Shown here piece after piece: positions 5,517-12,444 of a DNA stretch of 64,000 nucleotides. Origin of the DNA: Anaerolineales bacterium (GTDB lineage Bacteria; Chloroflexota; Anaerolineae; Anaerolineales; UBA11579); NCBI GenBank assembly GCA_019637805.1, contig JAHBVB010000002.1, forward strand, positions 699,981-763,980, written 5' to 3'. Each line of letters opens with the position of its first letter. Position 1 is the first letter of the stretch. Made by a program: the position numbers and the translations under genes. The notes beneath the pieces were generated by a model, which was not told the DNA's origin, searched no databases, and worked only from the letters and a program-made list of their open reading frames with translations.

Positions 5517-7136
5517 ATGGCCATCGCTATTCGCCCCACATCCATGAACGCACTTTGGCAGGGCCTTCGCCAGAACTCCAGCAGTTTTCTGGCTGCCCTG
5601 CAGCCCCCTGAAACTCCCAGCCTGGGATTGCATTATTACGATATCGAAGCATCCAACGGGCGCACTTTCCGCATCCACCTGCGCGTGGAGCCCAGCGGCA
5701 ATGGCGTCCTCTTCGTGGATGTGACCGATGTGGTCCACCTGAACCAGACGGCCACCCTGATGGCCAAGATGGCCCTGGATGGCGTGCCGCGCCATGCAGC
5801 GCGGGCGCGCCTGGCCAGCTGGCGCAGCGGCGTGGCCGCTGCGCAGCTGAACAGCGAGCTCGACCAGATCTACGACATGGTCGATGGCTTCCGCCACCCG
5901 GACGGGGACTGTGCCACCTGCCGCCTGTCTGATGCGGTGTCCATGTCGCCCCTGTTCAGCATTGAGATCAATGCGCCGTACAAGGTAGACATGGCGCTGA
6001 CCTACGGCTGCAACAACGAGTGCCCGCACTGTTACAACGAGAATGACCGCCTGCAAATGCCCTCACTGCCCCTGGTGGAGTGGCAGGCCGTGCTGGACCG
6101 CCTGGCTGAGCTGGGTGTGCCGCATTTGATCCTGACCGGCGGCGAGGCCACGCTGCACCCCGACCTGCCGCAGATCATCCAGTACGCCGAGAAGCTGGGC
6201 ATGGTGGTAGGCCTCAACACCAACGGCCGTCACATCGCTCATAAGCCCTATATGGAAGAACTGGCCGAGGCCGGTTTGAACCATGTGCAGATCACGTTGG
6301 GTTCCAGCCGGGGGGAAGTGCACGATGCCATGATGGGGGCGACCTCTTTCGAGCAAACCCTGCGGGGCATCGAGAACGCGGTGGCCAGCCGCGTGCATGT
6401 CATCACCAACACCACGCTGATGCGCGCCAACATGGACCACGCCGAAGAGATCATCGAGTTCCTTTACTCGCTGGGCATCCGCACTTTTGCGATGAACGGC
6501 ATGATCTATTCCGGCGGCGGTTTTGCCCATCCGTCTGCCATCACGGAGGCGGAGATGCCTGCGTTGCTGGTGCGCGTGCGTGATAAGGCGGACGAGCTGG
6601 GCATGCGCTTCCTGTGGTACACGCCCACCGAGTATTGCCGCATGTCCCCGGTGGAACTGGAAATTGGCGCCAAGCGCTGCAATGCCGGGGAGTACTCGCT
6701 GTGCATTGAACCGAATGGCGATGTGCTGCCCTGCCAGTCGTATTACGTGTCCGCAGGCAACATCCTGCATGATCCCTGGGAACAAATTTGGGATGGGGAG
6801 CTGTTCCGCTCTTTCCGCCACCGCGAAGAAGACCCCAAGGGCTATGGCCTGCCGGAGAAGTGCTGGACCTGCCCGGACCTGCCGCTGTGCGGTGGGGGCT
6901 GCCGCATCGAGCGTGAAGCACGCGATGGCGTGCGCATCGCCGGCGAGGGCGGCGGCGGTTGCTCTGGCTGCAGCGGCAGCTGCGGCACCGGCGGGGCGGC
7001 CCACGAGATCAAGAGTCATGTACACACTGCCGGCTATATCCCGACAGGCGGCTTCATCCCTTCGCCCAGCACCACGCGCACCACGGTGCGCTCCAGCGGT
7101 AACATGTCGCTGATCGGCCTGGAGGAAATTCAATAG
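5517..7136 (+). CDS. Radical SAM/SPASM enzyme with N-terminal RRE-like (PqqD-type) domain
   Basis: A 539-residue protein. Residues ~35-120 form a PqqD/RRE-like peptide-recognition region (RIHLRVEPSGNG ... VVHLNQTA). The radical SAM core carries C165-x3-C169-x2-C172 (CNNECPHC), followed by LILTGGEAT. The C-terminal SPASM-type region holds several more cysteines (RCNAGEYSLCIEP, LPCQSYY, KCWTCPDLPLCGGGC), so one or two auxiliary Fe-S clusters are likely. A Gly-rich stretch with C482, C485 and C489 and a Thr/Ser-rich tail extend the C-terminus. RRE plus SPASM architecture is known from enzymes that modify ribosomal peptides or quinone cofactors (PqqE, anaerobic sulfatase maturases). Neighbours encode a GIKRGLT-domain membrane protein and, at 9119, a cysteine-less paralogue, pointing to a shared modification system; the substrate is not proven. 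Confidence 0.85.
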   Translation: MAIAIRPTSMNALWQGLRQNSSSFLAALQPPETPSLGLHYYDIEASNGRTFRIHLRVEPSGNGVLFVDVTDVVHLNQTATLMAKMALDGVPRHAARARLASWRSGVAAAQLNSELDQIYDMVDGFRHPDGDCATCRLSDAVSMSPLFSIEINAPYKVDMALTYGCNNECPHCYNENDRLQMPSLPLVEWQAVLDRLAELGVPHLILTGGEATLHPDLPQIIQYAEKLGMVVGLNTNGRHIAHKPYMEELAEAGLNHVQITLGSSRGEVHDAMMGATSFEQTLRGIENAVASRVHVITNTTLMRANMDHAEEIIEFLYSLGIRTFAMNGMIYSGGGFAHPSAITEAEMPALLVRVRDKADELGMRFLWYTPTEYCRMSPVELEIGAKRCNAGEYSLCIEPNGDVLPCQSYYVSAGNILHDPWEQIWDGELFRSFRHREEDPKGYGLPEKCWTCPDLPLCGGGCRIEREARDGVRIAGEGGGGCSGCSGSCGTGGAAHEIKSHVHTAGYIPTGGFIPSPSTTRTTVRSSGNMSLIGLEEIQ

Positions 7137-7161: not shown

Positions 7162-7194
7162 AAGGCTCCCGGTTATGATTGCCGGGAGCCTTTT
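7162..7194 (+). terminator. Terminator/attenuator after the radical SAM gene
   Basis: An 11-bp perfect stem (7162-7172 with 7182-7192), 9-base loop and a TTTT tail, 25 bases after the radical SAM stop codon. The next gene starts at 7211 on the same strand, so this could reduce rather than abolish read-through. Confidence 0.75.
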
Positions 7195-7210
7195 ACTTGA
7201 TGGAAGACGA

Positions 7211-8077
7211 ATGACACTTCAATACGCGATCCTGGCCGTCTGTGTTCTTTTGCTTTTGTATGTCGGCACGCGCTATTGGCACTGGCGGCAGGCCAACCTG
7301 CAGCCCTACACGCCCGCCCTGGCGCGCATCGAAGGCGGCGGGATCAAACGCGGCCTGACCCCCGCCGAAGGCGCTATCTTGCTGGGCCGTCCTCTGCATA
7401 TCACGCTCACCCTGGTCATTTTCGAGATGCTGCGCAAAGGCTTCCTGCGCCAGGTAGCTGCCGATCCACTGACGGTGGAAGTGGCCGAGGCTTTTCGCAC
7501 CCAGGGCCGCGGCCTGAGTCCACAGGCGCGCGGCGACCAACGCCGGGCGGCTGCGCAGAAGATCAACAGCACATTGCATCTCTACGAAGAACCGTTTCTG
7601 GAGATTATCGAGGCCCATCCGGGCCGCCCGGTGGCCGAGTTGGACCTGGGCGTGGCGGTGCAGCCGTTGGTGCGCTATGTGGCCGGGCGAGTGGGCGGCT
7701 ACAGCCTGGAGGAGAGCCGGGAATACTACCGCCTGATCATCGAGCGTGCCCCGCGTGAAGCGCGCAGCGACGGCCGCCTGACCTTTGAACGCCAGAAAGT
7801 GCTGGACCGCAACTTTGGCTGGGTACTGCTTGGCGACGAGTTCGCCGGTGTGCTGGATACGCCGGAGCTCAGCTACTTGCCGTTGTGGCTGCGCCCGCCG
7901 CGCGGCTCCGGCCAGGAACTGGGCGCAGTGGGCTTCGCTGCTTGGGCTCAGGGTGTGATGGATGGGTTGGCGGGTGTGGTGGCCGAGGAAGATGTCAAGC
8001 TGACCTTGGGCCGTGAAGAGGATGCCACCACCGCGACCTTGCTCAATGACATCACCCGCACCACGTTTTACGGCTGA
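7211..8077 (+). CDS. Membrane-anchored GIKRGLT-domain protein (paralogue of the DUF2207 cytoplasmic half)
   Basis: A 288-residue protein: one N-terminal membrane helix (about residues 4-20), then a cytoplasmic domain. Its opening IEGGGIKRGLTPAEGAILL matches IEGHGIKRGLTAPEAAILL of the DUF2207 protein at 10297-12021, and the two stay alignable through a helical segment (YSLEESREYYRLI versus FSKRETVDFYRKI) to GFAAWAQGVMDGLAGVV versus DFAASMVQGVQNMAGGVV. Unlike that relative it has no signal peptide, no extracellular domain and no Cys-rich tail. A GGAAGACG ribosome site supports ATG 7211. Function is unknown; co-orientation with the intact radical SAM enzyme mirrors the DUF2207/pseudo-radical-SAM pair on the other strand. 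Confidence 0.75.
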   Translation: MTLQYAILAVCVLLLLYVGTRYWHWRQANLQPYTPALARIEGGGIKRGLTPAEGAILLGRPLHITLTLVIFEMLRKGFLRQVAADPLTVEVAEAFRTQGRGLSPQARGDQRRAAAQKINSTLHLYEEPFLEIIEAHPGRPVAELDLGVAVQPLVRYVAGRVGGYSLEESREYYRLIIERAPREARSDGRLTFERQKVLDRNFGWVLLGDEFAGVLDTPELSYLPLWLRPPRGSGQELGAVGFAAWAQGVMDGLAGVVAEEDVKLTLGREEDATTATLLNDITRTTFYG

Positions 8078-8122: not shown

Positions 8123-9043
8123 ATGTCTAATTTCCCTACGCTCTACAACAGTGAAGATGCCTTCCGCGACTATGTCCCGCGCACCCAGGAGTTTATGACG
8201 CTGGGAGCCCAAGCCGGCCTACGGCCCGCAGCCGAAGACAAGGCCCGCGCGGCGCTAGTGGTGATCGATATGCAGAACGACTTTGTGCGCCCGGAGGGCG
8301 CACTCAGCGTGCCCGGCTCCGAGGCCGATCTGCAGCGCCTCGTCGAATTCATTTACAACAAAGCCGAGCAGATCAGTGCTATCTACTGCACGCTGGATTC
8401 GCACTATCCGATGCAGATCTTCTACAGCGAGTGGTGGCACAACCCGGCTACTGGCGAGCAGCCGGCACCTTTCACCGTCATCACCGCCGAAGATCTGGCC
8501 CAGGGTGCATGGGTCGCCCGGCAGGATGCGGAGTGGTCGCAGCACTACGTCACCGAACTGGCCAAGCAGAGCCAGAAACAGCTCATGATCTGGCCCAAGC
8601 ACACCATGGTGGGCACCTGGGGCCAGGCCCTCTCGCCAGCGCTGTACGAGGCGATTGCCTGGCACAGCGCCGCCCGGCAGGCCCAGCCGGTCTTCGTGAC
8701 CAAGGGCGACCTGCCGCAGGTGGAGCGCTACGGGGCGTTTGCGCCAGAGGTGGAATATCCCGGCGACCCGCGCGGCCGGGCCGACCGGACCTTGCTGGAC
8801 GAACTCGCCGGTTACGAGCGCACCTGGTGGGCGGGTGAGGCCGAGACACACTGCGTGATTGCCAGCCAGGTACAGGCGGCGGAGTACTATGCCAGTAAGC
8901 CCCAGGTGCTGGAAGGCATGAACTTCCTAACCGACTGCACCAGCCCTATCCTGCACCCTGAGGTTGACTTCGTCGGCCCGACACGCGCCGAGCAGCAGCG
9001 ACTGGCTGCGCTCGGTGTGAAGCTGGTGAAGAGCACGGATTAG
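8123..9043 (+). CDS. Cysteine hydrolase, isochorismatase/nicotinamidase family
   Basis: A 306-residue protein with the isochorismatase-like fold: ALVVIDMQNDF supplies the catalytic Asp and metal-side residues, IWPKHTMVGT the Lys, and GEAETHCVIASQ the nucleophilic Cys, so the Asp-Lys-Cys triad is complete. Nicotinamidases and related amidohydrolases usually have 180-220 residues. This longer form has an N-terminal extension and extra loops, as seen in the larger nicotinamidase-like subfamily, so nicotinamide is possible but not certain. A GAGGAG ribosome site precedes the ATG, with TATTAT at 8086-8091 as a probable -10 box. The gene ends at a bidirectional terminator shared with the facing operon. 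Confidence 0.8.
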   Translation: MSNFPTLYNSEDAFRDYVPRTQEFMTLGAQAGLRPAAEDKARAALVVIDMQNDFVRPEGALSVPGSEADLQRLVEFIYNKAEQISAIYCTLDSHYPMQIFYSEWWHNPATGEQPAPFTVITAEDLAQGAWVARQDAEWSQHYVTELAKQSQKQLMIWPKHTMVGTWGQALSPALYEAIAWHSAARQAQPVFVTKGDLPQVERYGAFAPEVEYPGDPRGRADRTLLDELAGYERTWWAGEAETHCVIASQVQAAEYYASKPQVLEGMNFLTDCTSPILHPEVDFVGPTRAEQQRLAALGVKLVKSTD

Positions 9044-9051
9044 CTATAGAT

Positions 9052-9087
9052 AAAAAAGAGGCCGGTCTTTTGACCGGCCTCTTTTTT
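9052..9087. terminator. Bidirectional Rho-independent terminator
   Basis: A 16-bp perfect inverted repeat (9052-9067 with 9072-9087) with A6 on one side and T6 on the other, between the convergent hydrolase and pseudo-radical-SAM genes. It can serve both strands. Confidence 0.9.
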
Positions 9088-9118
9088 GTCTATGCAATCT
9101 ACAAGCTGATGATAGGGG

Positions 9119-10297
9119 CTATGCCTTAACCTTCCAGATCTTGCTCCACTTGTCATTCAGCATATTGCCCAAAACTTTTTTGCCGCCCTGTCCTGCCAGC
9201 ACGTCGCCATCCGGCTCGACGTACAGCCAGGCGCGGCCGGCCCCGTCGAGCGCTTTGGTTTTCTGGGCTTTGAGCTCCAGGCTCACCGGGTTTAAGCCTG
9301 AGTAAGGCACCGGCATGTCCCAGACCAGCGGCAAGCCCATATGATTGGCGTGGTCGGCGGCGGTTTGCAGCTTGTCGCTGAGCGTTTCGTCACTCTCGCT
9401 CAACGAAAGGGCGCGCACGCCGCTCTCGGCGATACGGTCGATCAGGCTATTGATCTGCTTGGCGTTCTGCTTGGTCAGCGTCAGGTGGGCGGCGATGAAG
9501 ATGTCATCATCCAGCACCTTGCGCCAGTAGGCAAAACTGGCCAGTGATTCCCAGGTTTCCTCTTTGCTGGGCTGCAGCACGATCATGGCGTGGTCCAGGC
9601 CTGCATCTAATAGGGTCTTCAGGTAACGCGTATCGCCCAGCTTGCGGCCGTCGGTGATCAGGCCGCTCACCAAGCCGTGCTCTTCGGCGCGCTGCAGCAG
9701 TTGCGGCAGATCCTCACGCAGGGTGGGTTCGCCGCCGGTGAACAGCACATGCGGGATGCCGATTTCGTAGGCCCTGTCGATGATCTGCGTCCACTCTTCG
9801 GTGCTGAGCTCGCGGGTCACGCGCTTGGTGGGCGCCGCATCGCGCGGGGCTCCGGCGGGCAGCTTGTAAGTCAGCGCGCAATCCAGCCGATAGGGCGCGG
9901 TCATCGAGTCGGTATAGGGCGCCTGGCGTTCCAGGTTCAGGTAGGTCACCGGGTCCAGGTCGGGCGTCTCGATCAATGTTTGCAGGCTTTGCGCAAAGTT
10001 GGCGTAATCGGTGGTTGCCTGTTTTTTGCTGACCCGGTAGCGTTGGCTGATTTTGGCGGCAACTTCATCCGGAGGGGTTAGATGGATGAAGTGATACGCA
10101 TATTCTGCGGCGGACTGGTTGAGGTGCATCACCGTCGAGGCATTCAATACCAGCAGTCCCTGGCCGTTCGGCTCCACGCGCAGATGCAAGCGGTAGTGGA
10201 AGGGATGGCTGGCCGGCGCCGTGTAAGTATAAAAGCCCGGCTCCAGGGGAGCGGCGCGCTCAGTGTCGTTCAAGCCCAGGCGTTCTCGCCAGCCCAT
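9119..10297 (-). CDS. Degenerate radical SAM paralogue lacking all cluster cysteines
   Basis: A 392-residue protein homologous along its length to the radical SAM enzyme at 5517: the RRE-like region keeps RLHLRVEPNGQG and MHLNQSA, the barrel keeps HVLFTGGEPTLREDLPQLL, and the C-terminal part keeps YVEPDGDVL and LGNMLNDKWSKIW. The CxxxCxxC loop is replaced by an equally placed KLPAGAPRDAAPTK stretch, and the SPASM cysteines are gone: only one Cys remains in the whole protein. It cannot bind a [4Fe-4S] cluster in the usual way, so it is probably a pseudoenzyme, perhaps a substrate-binding or scaffold partner. The ATG at 10297 overlaps the stop of the DUF2207 gene by one base (TGATG), behind GGAGGAG, so the two are translationally coupled. 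The frame is intact, arguing against a pseudogene. Confidence 0.85.
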   Translation of the reverse strand: MGWRERLGLNDTERAAPLEPGFYTYTAPASHPFHYRLHLRVEPNGQGLLVLNASTVMHLNQSAAEYAYHFIHLTPPDEVAAKISQRYRVSKKQATTDYANFAQSLQTLIETPDLDPVTYLNLERQAPYTDSMTAPYRLDCALTYKLPAGAPRDAAPTKRVTRELSTEEWTQIIDRAYEIGIPHVLFTGGEPTLREDLPQLLQRAEEHGLVSGLITDGRKLGDTRYLKTLLDAGLDHAMIVLQPSKEETWESLASFAYWRKVLDDDIFIAAHLTLTKQNAKQINSLIDRIAESGVRALSLSESDETLSDKLQTAADHANHMGLPLVWDMPVPYSGLNPVSLELKAQKTKALDGAGRAWLYVEPDGDVLAGQGGKKVLGNMLNDKWSKIWKVKA

Positions 10298-12021
10298 CAG
10301 CGGCCTCCTCCAGCGCAAGCGCAGGCGCAGCCGGCACAAGCGCAGGCGCAGGAACTGCCACCCCCGCTGAAGCCGCCGCCGCTGCTGCTGGTGCGGCTGG
10401 GCGGGGGCGGCGGGTTGGTCACTTTGGTTACGCCGCCGGTAAAGTCGCTCAGGTTGCCCACCACGCCGCCGGCCATGTTCTGCACGCCCTGCACCATGGA
10501 GGCAGCGAAATCCGCCCCCGGCAGGGTGGGCAGCGAAACACCGCCGCCCGTGCTCTTGGTTGGCGCACCGGGGCCGCTGCGGCCCCCGCCGCCCGCGCCG
10601 GCCGTGCGGAAGGTGGGGTCATAGCTGCCCCACCAGCGCGGCACATACACGGAACGCCCGCCACCGCCGAAGACGTCTTGCGTGCGGCGGTTGTAATCCT
10701 TGTCCATCATGGTCCATTCCAGGTTCTCTTCGTACAGTTGGCTCTGGACCTTGGGTGTGTCGGCTGCCTCCACTTGCTTCCAGGCATCCTCAGAAATCTT
10801 GCGATAGAAGTCGACGGTCTCACGCTTGCTGAAGCCGCGCATCTTGGTGGCCACGCCCTTGACCAGGCGCACCATCATGTCTTGCAGTTCTTTGCGGCGC
10901 TTGGTCTTGTTGCTCTGGGCGAAGGCGCCCAGGAATTCCATCTCGTAATCGCGCAGGCCGGCCTCGGCGGGCAGCGGCGAGGCCACTTTGAGTTCCAGTG
11001 GATCACGTTTCTCCACCTCGGCCGCGCCCTTTTTGATCGCCGAGAACAGCATCATGGTCAAGATCTTGTCCATGGGCTGTTCCAGCAGAATAGCCGCTTC
11101 TGGGGCGGTTAGGCCGCGCTTGATGCCGTGGCCTTCAATCGAGATCTTGGGTGGCAGGTATTGCATGCGGCGCCGGCGGTCTGCCGCCACTGCCACCCAG
11201 ATAATGATGCCCATGATCAGGCCGAAGCAGCAGCACACCAGCATGGTGATGACGAAGTCCGGGTCCAGGCCCAGGCGCTGCCAGATGTTGGGTTGCTGGA
11301 TGGTGCTGGCGGGCACGTAGTGAGTGGGAAAAGACGCGCCGAAGATGTACTCACGCGAGGGACTGGCGCTGGGGTTGCGCCAGGTATAGGTGATGCGGCC
11401 CTGGTTATCCCGGCCGGTTACCGGCTCGTCCGGGAACCCCACGTGGCCTTCGGTGTGCCAGCGCGGCTCAGCCGGCTGCACACCGGGGGGCAGGTGGAAG
11501 ATGACGGTCAGGTCTGTCGTGCCGTAGGTGAATTCACTGCCGAAGTAATTCGGCATAAACAAAGCGCTGGCGTAATCGTCGTCCAGGTTGTCGGTATACA
11601 GTACCTGGCGGATGCCGGTCACGCGGGCGCGGAAAGTGCCGCTGCCGCCGGCCGGGATGGGATTGCTAAAGTAGATGGCGGGGCCGGCATCAATGTAAGG
11701 AGATTGCGCCTCGATGCGTGATGCCGCCTGGCCGTTCATGGATGCCGTGATGTTGCCGGCAGAATATTGCCGGTTGGGCAGGCCCAGGTCCACCACGTCG
11801 ATGGGATGCGCCCCTGTGCCGTTTTGGAAAACAACTTCATAGTCAACCGTGACGGTGCCGTCGCTCTCCCAGTACACATCCACCCAGGCGCGTGGCACAG
11901 CGAAATAATAGTCCTGGGCCGAGACACTGAACGGCATGGCCAGCATGACCAGCAGGCCGAGCAGCAGCAGGGCAGAACGCCAGGACGGCTTGCGCAGGTT
12001 CTGCAAAAACTGTCTTACCAT
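10297..12021 (-). CDS. DUF2207-type membrane protein with Cys-Ala-rich cytoplasmic tail
   Basis: A 574-residue protein: signal peptide (residues 1-30), an extracytoplasmic beta-rich domain (to about 260), a membrane helix containing CCCFGLIMGIIIWVAVA, then a cytoplasmic domain starting GIKRGLT that matches the protein at 7211. A Gly/Pro-rich linker ends in a striking tail whose last 19 residues hold six cysteines at 558, 560, 562, 565, 567 and 569, alternating with alanine (CACACAGCACACA), closed by GGGR. The tail should lie in the cytoplasm, within reach of a modifying enzyme. The start overlaps the upstream zinc-ribbon gene by 7 bases and the stop overlaps the pseudo-radical-SAM start, so the three form one coupled operon. 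DUF2207 function is unknown; a metal-binding or modified-peptide role is inferred. Confidence 0.85.
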   Translation of the reverse strand: MVRQFLQNLRKPSWRSALLLLGLLVMLAMPFSVSAQDYYFAVPRAWVDVYWESDGTVTVDYEVVFQNGTGAHPIDVVDLGLPNRQYSAGNITASMNGQAASRIEAQSPYIDAGPAIYFSNPIPAGGSGTFRARVTGIRQVLYTDNLDDDYASALFMPNYFGSEFTYGTTDLTVIFHLPPGVQPAEPRWHTEGHVGFPDEPVTGRDNQGRITYTWRNPSASPSREYIFGASFPTHYVPASTIQQPNIWQRLGLDPDFVITMLVCCCFGLIMGIIIWVAVAADRRRRMQYLPPKISIEGHGIKRGLTAPEAAILLEQPMDKILTMMLFSAIKKGAAEVEKRDPLELKVASPLPAEAGLRDYEMEFLGAFAQSNKTKRRKELQDMMVRLVKGVATKMRGFSKRETVDFYRKISEDAWKQVEAADTPKVQSQLYEENLEWTMMDKDYNRRTQDVFGGGGRSVYVPRWWGSYDPTFRTAGAGGGGRSGPGAPTKSTGGGVSLPTLPGADFAASMVQGVQNMAGGVVGNLSDFTGGVTKVTNPPPPPSRTSSSGGGFSGGGSSCACACAGCACACAGGGR

Positions 12022-12371
12022 TTGGGTTTCTCTTCGACTTGATAGACAGCCCCACAATAGGGGCATTCGACGTTGAGCGCGCCGCCCACCAGGCGCACGT
12101 TTTCACTGCTCAGCGCGCCGCCGCACTGGCGGCACTGGAAGTTCTCCAGATTGACATCGCCGGTGAGCTCTACCTGATAGGTTACCTTGTGTTCTTGGGC
12201 AGCGGGTTCTTTGCGGTTCACGTACCAAATGATGCCCAAACCAATTGCGGTGCTGATGGCGCCAACTGCGATCCAACCAATGCCGCCGCCTTGATCACTG
12301 AACGCACCCCATATAAATAGCACGCCAAAAAAGACCAAAATGGCGGCGAAAATATTGCCAGCTGTCTTCAT
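12015..12371 (-). CDS. Small membrane protein with C-terminal zinc ribbon
   Basis: A 118-residue protein with two membrane helices (about residues 6-24 and 30-50) and a cytoplasmic C-terminal rubredoxin-like zinc ribbon: FQCRQCGGAL and ECPYCGAVY give two CxxC knuckles. No homologous function is recognised. The ATG at 12371 follows an AAGGAG site. The stop codon overlaps the DUF2207 start by 7 bases, so the protein is made together with the Cys-tail protein and the pseudo-radical-SAM protein. It may chaperone metal or assist assembly of that membrane complex, which is speculation. Confidence 0.75.
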   Translation of the reverse strand: MKTAGNIFAAILVFFGVLFIWGAFSDQGGGIGWIAVGAISTAIGLGIIWYVNRKEPAAQEHKVTYQVELTGDVNLENFQCRQCGGALSSENVRLVGGALNVECPYCGAVYQVEEKPKW

Positions 12372-12394
12372 TGAGAACTCCTTGTGTCTTCCGT

Positions 12395-12400
12395 AGTGTA
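12395..12400 (-). promoter_or_regulatory. Possible -10 box for the zinc-ribbon/DUF2207 operon
   Basis: TACACT on the minus strand, 23 bases before the ATG at 12371, leaving room for the AAGGAG ribosome site. No convincing -35 box. Confidence 0.35.
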
Positions 12401-12444
12401 GCCGATTTTTTGGCAAATCTTCGCTATCAGAGTGGCTAGAGGGT

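Follow-up and report, generated by a model that had tools for sequence, protein, structure and literature searches.

The closest described relatives of the protein considered here, in structure and in sequence, are the radical-SAM/SPASM enzymes SkfB, SuiB and PqqE (with PqqD), which share one layout of barrel plus SPASM domain. The RRE is fused in maturases of the SkfB/SuiB type, whereas for PqqE it is supplied by PqqD. SkfB, SuiB and PqqE all retain the CxxxCxxC cluster motif, and on Cys-rich substrates an enzyme of this type usually produces thioether cross-links. Pseudoenzymes, well known among kinases, are hardly described among radical-SAM proteins. One pseudo-SAM/SPASM family is nevertheless named, TIGR04347 (pseudo_SAM_Halo), haloarchaeal to judge from the family name, and in the GeoRSP system (TIGR04304) the NCBIfam names pair a radical-SAM enzyme with a SPASM-domain partner protein. 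For thuricin CD, two homologous RRE-containing radical-SAM/SPASM proteins, TrnC and TrnD, work together. The partners bind through RREs, TrnD chiefly contacts the leader in an AlphaFold 3 model, and the TrnD radical-SAM cluster is dispensable, only one partner's SAM cluster being essential (PMC12093266).

The window (the whole stretch of 64,000 nucleotides that was analysed, from an Anaerolineales bacterium) encodes a protein that the initial annotation had described as a radical-SAM fold that lost every cluster cysteine and kept the GGE motif, the barrel and an RRE-like region. Its coordinates, frame, fold and cysteine loss are confirmed. The frame opens with an ATG at 10297 and closes with a stop ending at 9119 (Table 1), and the only Cys among the 392 residues is that in YRLDCALTY. 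Alignment with the canonical enzyme encoded at 5517 (411 columns, 29% identity, E 5e-56) places ALTYKLPAGAPRDAAP in register where the canonical protein has ALTYGCNNECPHCYNE; over a wider stretch of the same loop, canonical GCNNECPHCYNE is replaced by KLPAGAPRDAAP, again in register. GGE is retained as TGGEPTL. Lacking are both the CxxxCxxC of the PF04055 superfamily and the auxiliary-cluster cysteines of SPASM domains. The protein nonetheless matches Pfam Radical_SAM (PF04055) at 41.5 bits (cut-off 29.5) and PqqD (PF05402) at 24.1-24.2 bits (cut-off 23.4), and TfuB1 was matched in an RRE search. An AlphaFold2 model (pLDDT 92, pTM 0.90) has a complete RRE plus radical-SAM fold; its N-domain consists of strands and then three helices, in support of the RRE-like region. 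The best PDB match of the model is SkfB (Z 23.2 over 303 residues), and PqqE and SuiB are other top structural matches.

Unlike SkfB, SuiB and PqqE, the window protein has no cluster motif. TIGR04347 is its second-best NCBIfam match, at 61.7 bits, far under the cut-off of 525 bits and exceeded by the active paralogue (98 bits); membership is ruled out by this score, and pseudo-SAM/SPASM proteins are thus already named, in another family. TIGR04304 was matched weakly, and only by a degenerate second pseudo type described below (16.6 bits, cut-off 300). Unlike the GeoRSP partner, the window protein retains the barrel and has no SPASM cysteines. The pseudo family matched no Pfam or NCBIfam model at cut-off, except for generic domains. 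Literature searches on pseudo-radical-SAM proteins, on TIGR04347 and on DUF2207 together with radical SAM, in a scope that took in few of the subscription journals, returned nothing relevant: no paper on a pseudo-radical-SAM protein and none describing the tail/radical-SAM system set out here.

Table 1. Features of the window and of related loci (domain limits are in residues of the pseudo protein; locus labels precede coordinates outside the window).
Feature	Position	Strand	Basis or remark
Pseudo-radical-SAM protein, 392 aa	9119..10297	(-)	frame, Pfam, alignment, AF2 model
RRE-like domain of pseudo protein, N-terminal	residues about 20-110
Radical-SAM barrel of pseudo protein, without cluster cysteines	residues about 131-301
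Truncated pseudo-SPASM end of pseudo protein			WLYVEPDGDVLAGQG
DUF2207-like membrane protein P0003, 574 aa, proposed substrate	10297..12021	(-)	sequence
C-terminal tail codons, CACACAGCACACAGGGR	10300..10350	(-)	near-invariant in orthologues and other phyla
Shine-Dalgarno-like GGAGGAGG	10304..10311	(-)	within Gly-Gly-Gly tail codons, six bases 5' of the pseudo-radical-SAM ATG
Small TM + zinc-ribbon protein	12015..12416	(-)	directly upstream of tailed gene
Canonical radical SAM/SPASM enzyme P0002, 539 aa, proposed catalytic partner	5517..7136	(+)	CNNECPHC, GGE, SPASM cysteines
300-aa membrane protein, tailless	7175..8077	(+)	resembles TM + cytoplasmic part of tailed protein
Inverted repeat, AAAAAAGAGGCCGGTC-tttt-GACCGGCCTCTTTTTT, flanked by A and T runs	9052..9090		sequence; between convergent genes
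Second, degenerate pseudo type	L180:7647-9125, L181:5582-7060, L183:3963-5261, L188:2335-3711		adjoins same kind of tail
Related system, families f40/f46/f20	L184:4076-7228, L185:2226-5582, L189:4291-7529		CHSAC-type tail

The gene is maintained. Matches were found in 20 of the 24 genomes of the window's family, and 19 of the 24 encode the pseudo protein itself (49-97% identity), in every case without the cluster motif (19/19) and with an intact frame. Close pairs have an omega of 0.04-0.14 in the pseudo gene, against 0.01-0.05 in the active one; these are pairwise estimates, and several of the synonymous distances are large. The values for the pseudo gene indicate strong constraint. The initial annotation had proposed that selection maintains the frame, and had named relaxed selection or frameshifts in close relatives as signs of decay. 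Neither was seen in the family genomes, and the proposal is borne out by the omega values, the intact frames, a single old origin and conserved replacement residues (both below). Loss of every catalytic cysteine is the one point in favour of a decaying pseudogene; the omega values and the 19 intact frames rule that reading out, and with a single origin across the class we regard it as virtually impossible.

The class survey comprised 346 genomes, and GTDB genomes were additionally scanned at the DNA level for the tail described below. There are 66 non-redundant pseudo sequences in Chloroflexota, all without the CxxxCxxC motif, and among the loci fetched such proteins occur in Chloroflexota only. 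So consistent a lack of the motif, in the 19 family orthologues and in these 66, goes far beyond chance. In an unrooted tree of 141 proteins, all 66 lie on one side of a single branch (SH-aLRT 100). In a second tree, rooted with a related radical-SAM group as outgroup, they are nested within the active radical-SAM/SPASM family; all of the pseudo sequences together with three single-copy active Anaerolineae enzymes have support 98, and the pseudo sequences minus the degenerate second type have support 90. Some of the single-copy active Anaerolineae enzymes that group with the pseudo sequences sit just downstream of a CACACA tail. From this grouping and the nested position, the older state was most likely one active enzyme, of which one copy later lost its cysteines, once. 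Repeated convergent loss of the cysteines was considered and is not supported, since a single pseudo clade was recovered even though the cluster-loop columns were excluded from both trees.

Two variants of the pseudo protein were observed. In one protein (L131:2315-3475) the first cluster cysteine survives and the other two are gone (ALTYRCDPDGTLDP), possibly a relic of the loss. The second pseudo type, in families f54, f39 and f25, is very degenerate: the cluster loop is deleted and GGE is lost, and the cysteines of the SPASM end are retained. It sits on a branch of length 3, where placement is unreliable.

Comparison of the two kinds of protein indicates which parts were given up. Among 58 active enzymes, 79 columns are conserved in at least 90%; 27 of these are lost in the pseudo sequences and 42 remain in over 80% of them, including GGE, which is present in 64/66. 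Lost are all of the cysteine columns (8/8), the C-terminal Cys columns 398, 439, 447 and 457 being retained in 0/66. Also lost or deleted are a strand-4 Ser, a strand-5 Asn and the strand-6 Asn/Ile/Gly, residues presumably placed around SAM, as is general for this fold. Many of the replacement residues are fixed: Asn to His271 (58/66), Tyr to Asp327 (62/66), Cys to Ser333 (59/66) and Cys to Asp115 (57/66).

Conservation is distributed differently in the two copies. In the RRE region the pseudo proteins of 51 genome-matched pairs have a mean identity of 51% among themselves and the active partners one of 42%, a difference of +9.3 points (bootstrap CI 6.8-11.8). The middle barrel, which holds GGE, shows no difference, and across the cluster loop, the late barrel and the C-terminal half it is the active copy that is higher, by 20-29 points. 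The RRE-to-mid-barrel ratio is 0.89 in pseudo proteins, 0.68 in their paired active enzymes and 0.69 in single-copy active enzymes, this last comparison being rough in that the single-copy set covers more phyla. Since the two active ratios agree and the pseudo ratio is higher, the recognition domain is under extra constraint in the pseudo copy rather than relaxed in the active one. Counts of PqqD Pfam matches (E up to 0.01) do not differ significantly between pseudo (53/66) and active proteins (22/36; p 0.06), and loss of the RRE from the active partner was therefore rejected as a conclusion from these counts alone.

The gene directly upstream of the pseudo gene encodes the candidate substrate. 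This protein has an N-terminal hydrophobic helix, an extracytoplasmic beta domain and one TM helix (about 254-287), followed by a winged-helix-like domain, a disordered linker and a Cys-Ala tail. Its C-terminus reads SSCACACAGCACACAGGGR, and the consensus tail, CACACA(CA)GCACACAGGGR-stop, is near-invariant. The initial annotation had the pseudo gene overlap the stop of a DUF2207 gene by one base, downstream of a strong ribosome site. The overlap (TGATG) and the ribosome site, GGAGGAGG six bases 5' of the ATG, are as described, but the upstream protein has no Pfam or NCBIfam match, PF09972 (DUF2207) included. A related CHSAC-tailed protein (in L185) does match DUF2207, at 30.9 bits (cut-off 24.4). 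A fold search with the window's tailed protein gave weak partial matches only, to an oligosaccharyltransferase subunit and M1 peptidase beta domains, and these probably fall on its extracytoplasmic domain.

Tail and pseudo gene are closely linked. The one-base overlap of stop and start is present in most of the 19 family members, and in 19/19 family genomes the pseudo start lies -1 to +22 bases from the host stop. A survey of the family in which the tail was not a search criterion likewise shows, in the loci whose frames were listed, a similar tail and then the pseudo gene immediately. The invariant GGGR codons of the tail also serve as the Shine-Dalgarno sequence of the pseudo gene. The tail scan of GTDB genomes returned at least 119 stretches, and among the matches listed the tail is the exact C-terminus in 80/80 loci. 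Those listed include Anaerolineae, Aminicenantes, Zixibacteria, Coatesbacteria, Edwardsbacteria and Fermentibacteria-like groups, as well as Acidobacteriota, Actinomycetota and four Asgard lineages.

The tail also co-occurs with radical-SAM enzymes. The tail DNA pattern is present in 51 of the 346 class genomes, a radical-SAM match in 55 (at E < 1e-36, a threshold chosen after the list was seen) and both in 50 (Fisher 2e-53); a reversed-tail-pattern control found none in these genomes. Five tail loci without an adjoining radical-SAM gene have the enzyme elsewhere in the genome (E < 1e-163). Asgard archaea and several other phyla, Zixibacteria among them, combine the tail with a single active enzyme alone, and many Anaerolineae have an active enzyme and a pseudoenzyme at one locus. 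Ornatilinea, Levilinea and Bellilinea, Anaerolineae with cultured isolates, each carry the tail together with active and pseudo genes. The order host, active, pseudo on one strand is the rule for such pairs, with 40 loci outside the window's family. Within that family the two radical-SAM genes are on opposite strands, and in one genome (G007) they are 129 kb apart. The window's active partner comes from a different active lineage than the partner enzymes of the other families with a pseudo gene (AU p 0.0017, for a group named after the tree was seen). This separate lineage suggests that the catalytic subunit was replaced, the pseudo subunit remaining with the tail protein.

We propose that the pseudo copy is the non-catalytic, substrate-binding or scaffold half of a two-subunit tail maturase, with a probability of about 0.6. 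The pseudo protein would itself do no radical chemistry, since its sequence has neither the cluster site for SAM cleavage nor the auxiliary SPASM sites. With its RRE-like domain and the barrel surface that it has kept, it may bind the C-terminal region of the DUF2207-like protein, translated just ahead of it, before modification, and, in a heterodimer with the active SPASM enzyme, it could pass the CACACAGCACACAGGGR tail to that enzyme. The active enzyme would then modify the tail cysteines, most likely with thioether cross-links, as expected for a maturase of this type. Two jobs of one ancestral enzyme would in this way have been split, with recognition best kept in the pseudo copy and catalysis in the active one. 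The genomic evidence, the conservation contrast in matched pairs and the functional precedent are all in line with a subunit role alongside the enzyme at 5517.

That precedent is TrnC/TrnD, in which two homologous RRE-containing radical-SAM/SPASM proteins work together (PMC12093266). The systems differ in that TrnD retains its clusters and cleaves SAM, whereas the window's pseudo partner is naturally without every cluster cysteine, and in that the peptide likely to be modified here is the C-terminal end of a membrane protein. Several observations count against a two-subunit maturase. The opposite-strand arrangement in the window's family, with the large separation in one genome, is one of them. 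Other phyla use the active enzyme alone, and a pseudo subunit is thus not inherently needed. The window's active partner retains its own RRE-like region, and the crossover in RRE conservation could reflect dimerisation and not tail binding. The analogy with RiPPs is also imperfect, because the tail ends a large membrane protein and not a small precursor.

A different role for the pseudo protein, in which it serves the tailed protein as its own chaperone, escort or regulator, binding the tail in modified or unmodified form and making no complex with the active enzyme, is unlikely but deserves the most serious attention among the alternatives. Translational coupling in the family is tight with the tail protein and not with the active enzyme, and the family's active enzyme comes from another lineage, as though the pseudo protein tracks the tail protein and not any one enzyme. 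Yet at 40 loci the pseudo gene comes after the active gene, both on one strand, and almost all genomes of the fetched pseudo loci encode an active enzyme, either nearby or, for the family survey, at another site.

Improbable, in our assessment, is a reading of the Cys-Ala tail as a metal- or cluster-binding device that the two radical-SAM proteins assemble or sense with no covalent modification. CxC repeats are typical metal ligands, as in metallothionein-like sequences, and a conserved zinc-ribbon membrane protein is encoded directly upstream. Against this, the active enzymes carry GGE, CxxxCxxC, SPASM cysteines and mostly a recognisable RRE, which is a peptide-modifying toolkit, and a related radical-SAM family adjoins a different Cys-repeat tail, CHSAC. 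Still harder to sustain is the idea that the pseudo protein remains an enzyme, either using SAM through GGE with no cluster or holding a cluster through ligands other than Cys. The retention of GGE and the fixation of some replaced pocket residues as His or Asp would be in keeping with it, but the SAM-site residues of strands 4-6 are lost or deleted, the letters of the cluster loop vary freely, and the most degenerate members have no GGE either.

The wider proposal has about even chances in our view. It holds that Asgard archaea and many bacterial phyla share a previously undescribed, phylum-crossing post-translational system, the near-invariant Cys-Ala tail of a DUF2207-like protein being modified by a radical-SAM/SPASM enzyme, and that in Anaerolineae this system came to have two subunits, with an obligatory pseudo recognition subunit and a catalytic partner exchanged at least once. 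Such a system implies a tail modification, apparently not described before, on a membrane protein common to these groups. With an ancient, strongly maintained clade, an active sister, the single-enzyme ancestor type and a candidate substrate, the split between recognition and catalysis becomes directly testable.

Other features of these loci were also noted. The canonical enzyme has a Cys-rich segment after its SPASM domain (6926-7010, GGGGCSGCSGSCGTGG), conserved within the family and not seen in most other active partners, and the tailless 300-aa paralogue adjoins this enzyme in many genomes of the family. Of the loci fetched, 93, some of them from Asgard archaea, have the gene for the TM + zinc-ribbon protein directly before the tailed gene. 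An isochorismatase-like gene (8123-9043) was rejected as part of the system, as it occurs only in the closest relatives among the fetched loci. The perfect-looking inverted repeat is probably a shared two-way terminator. In families f40, f46 and f20 a single active radical-SAM enzyme comes right after a DUF2207-type protein with the second kind of Cys-repeat tail. In eight f54 genomes (G197, G210, G242, G282, G334, G340, G354 and G366) the tail DNA pattern occurs twice, mostly with a spacing of about 2 kb, which suggests two tailed proteins in tandem.
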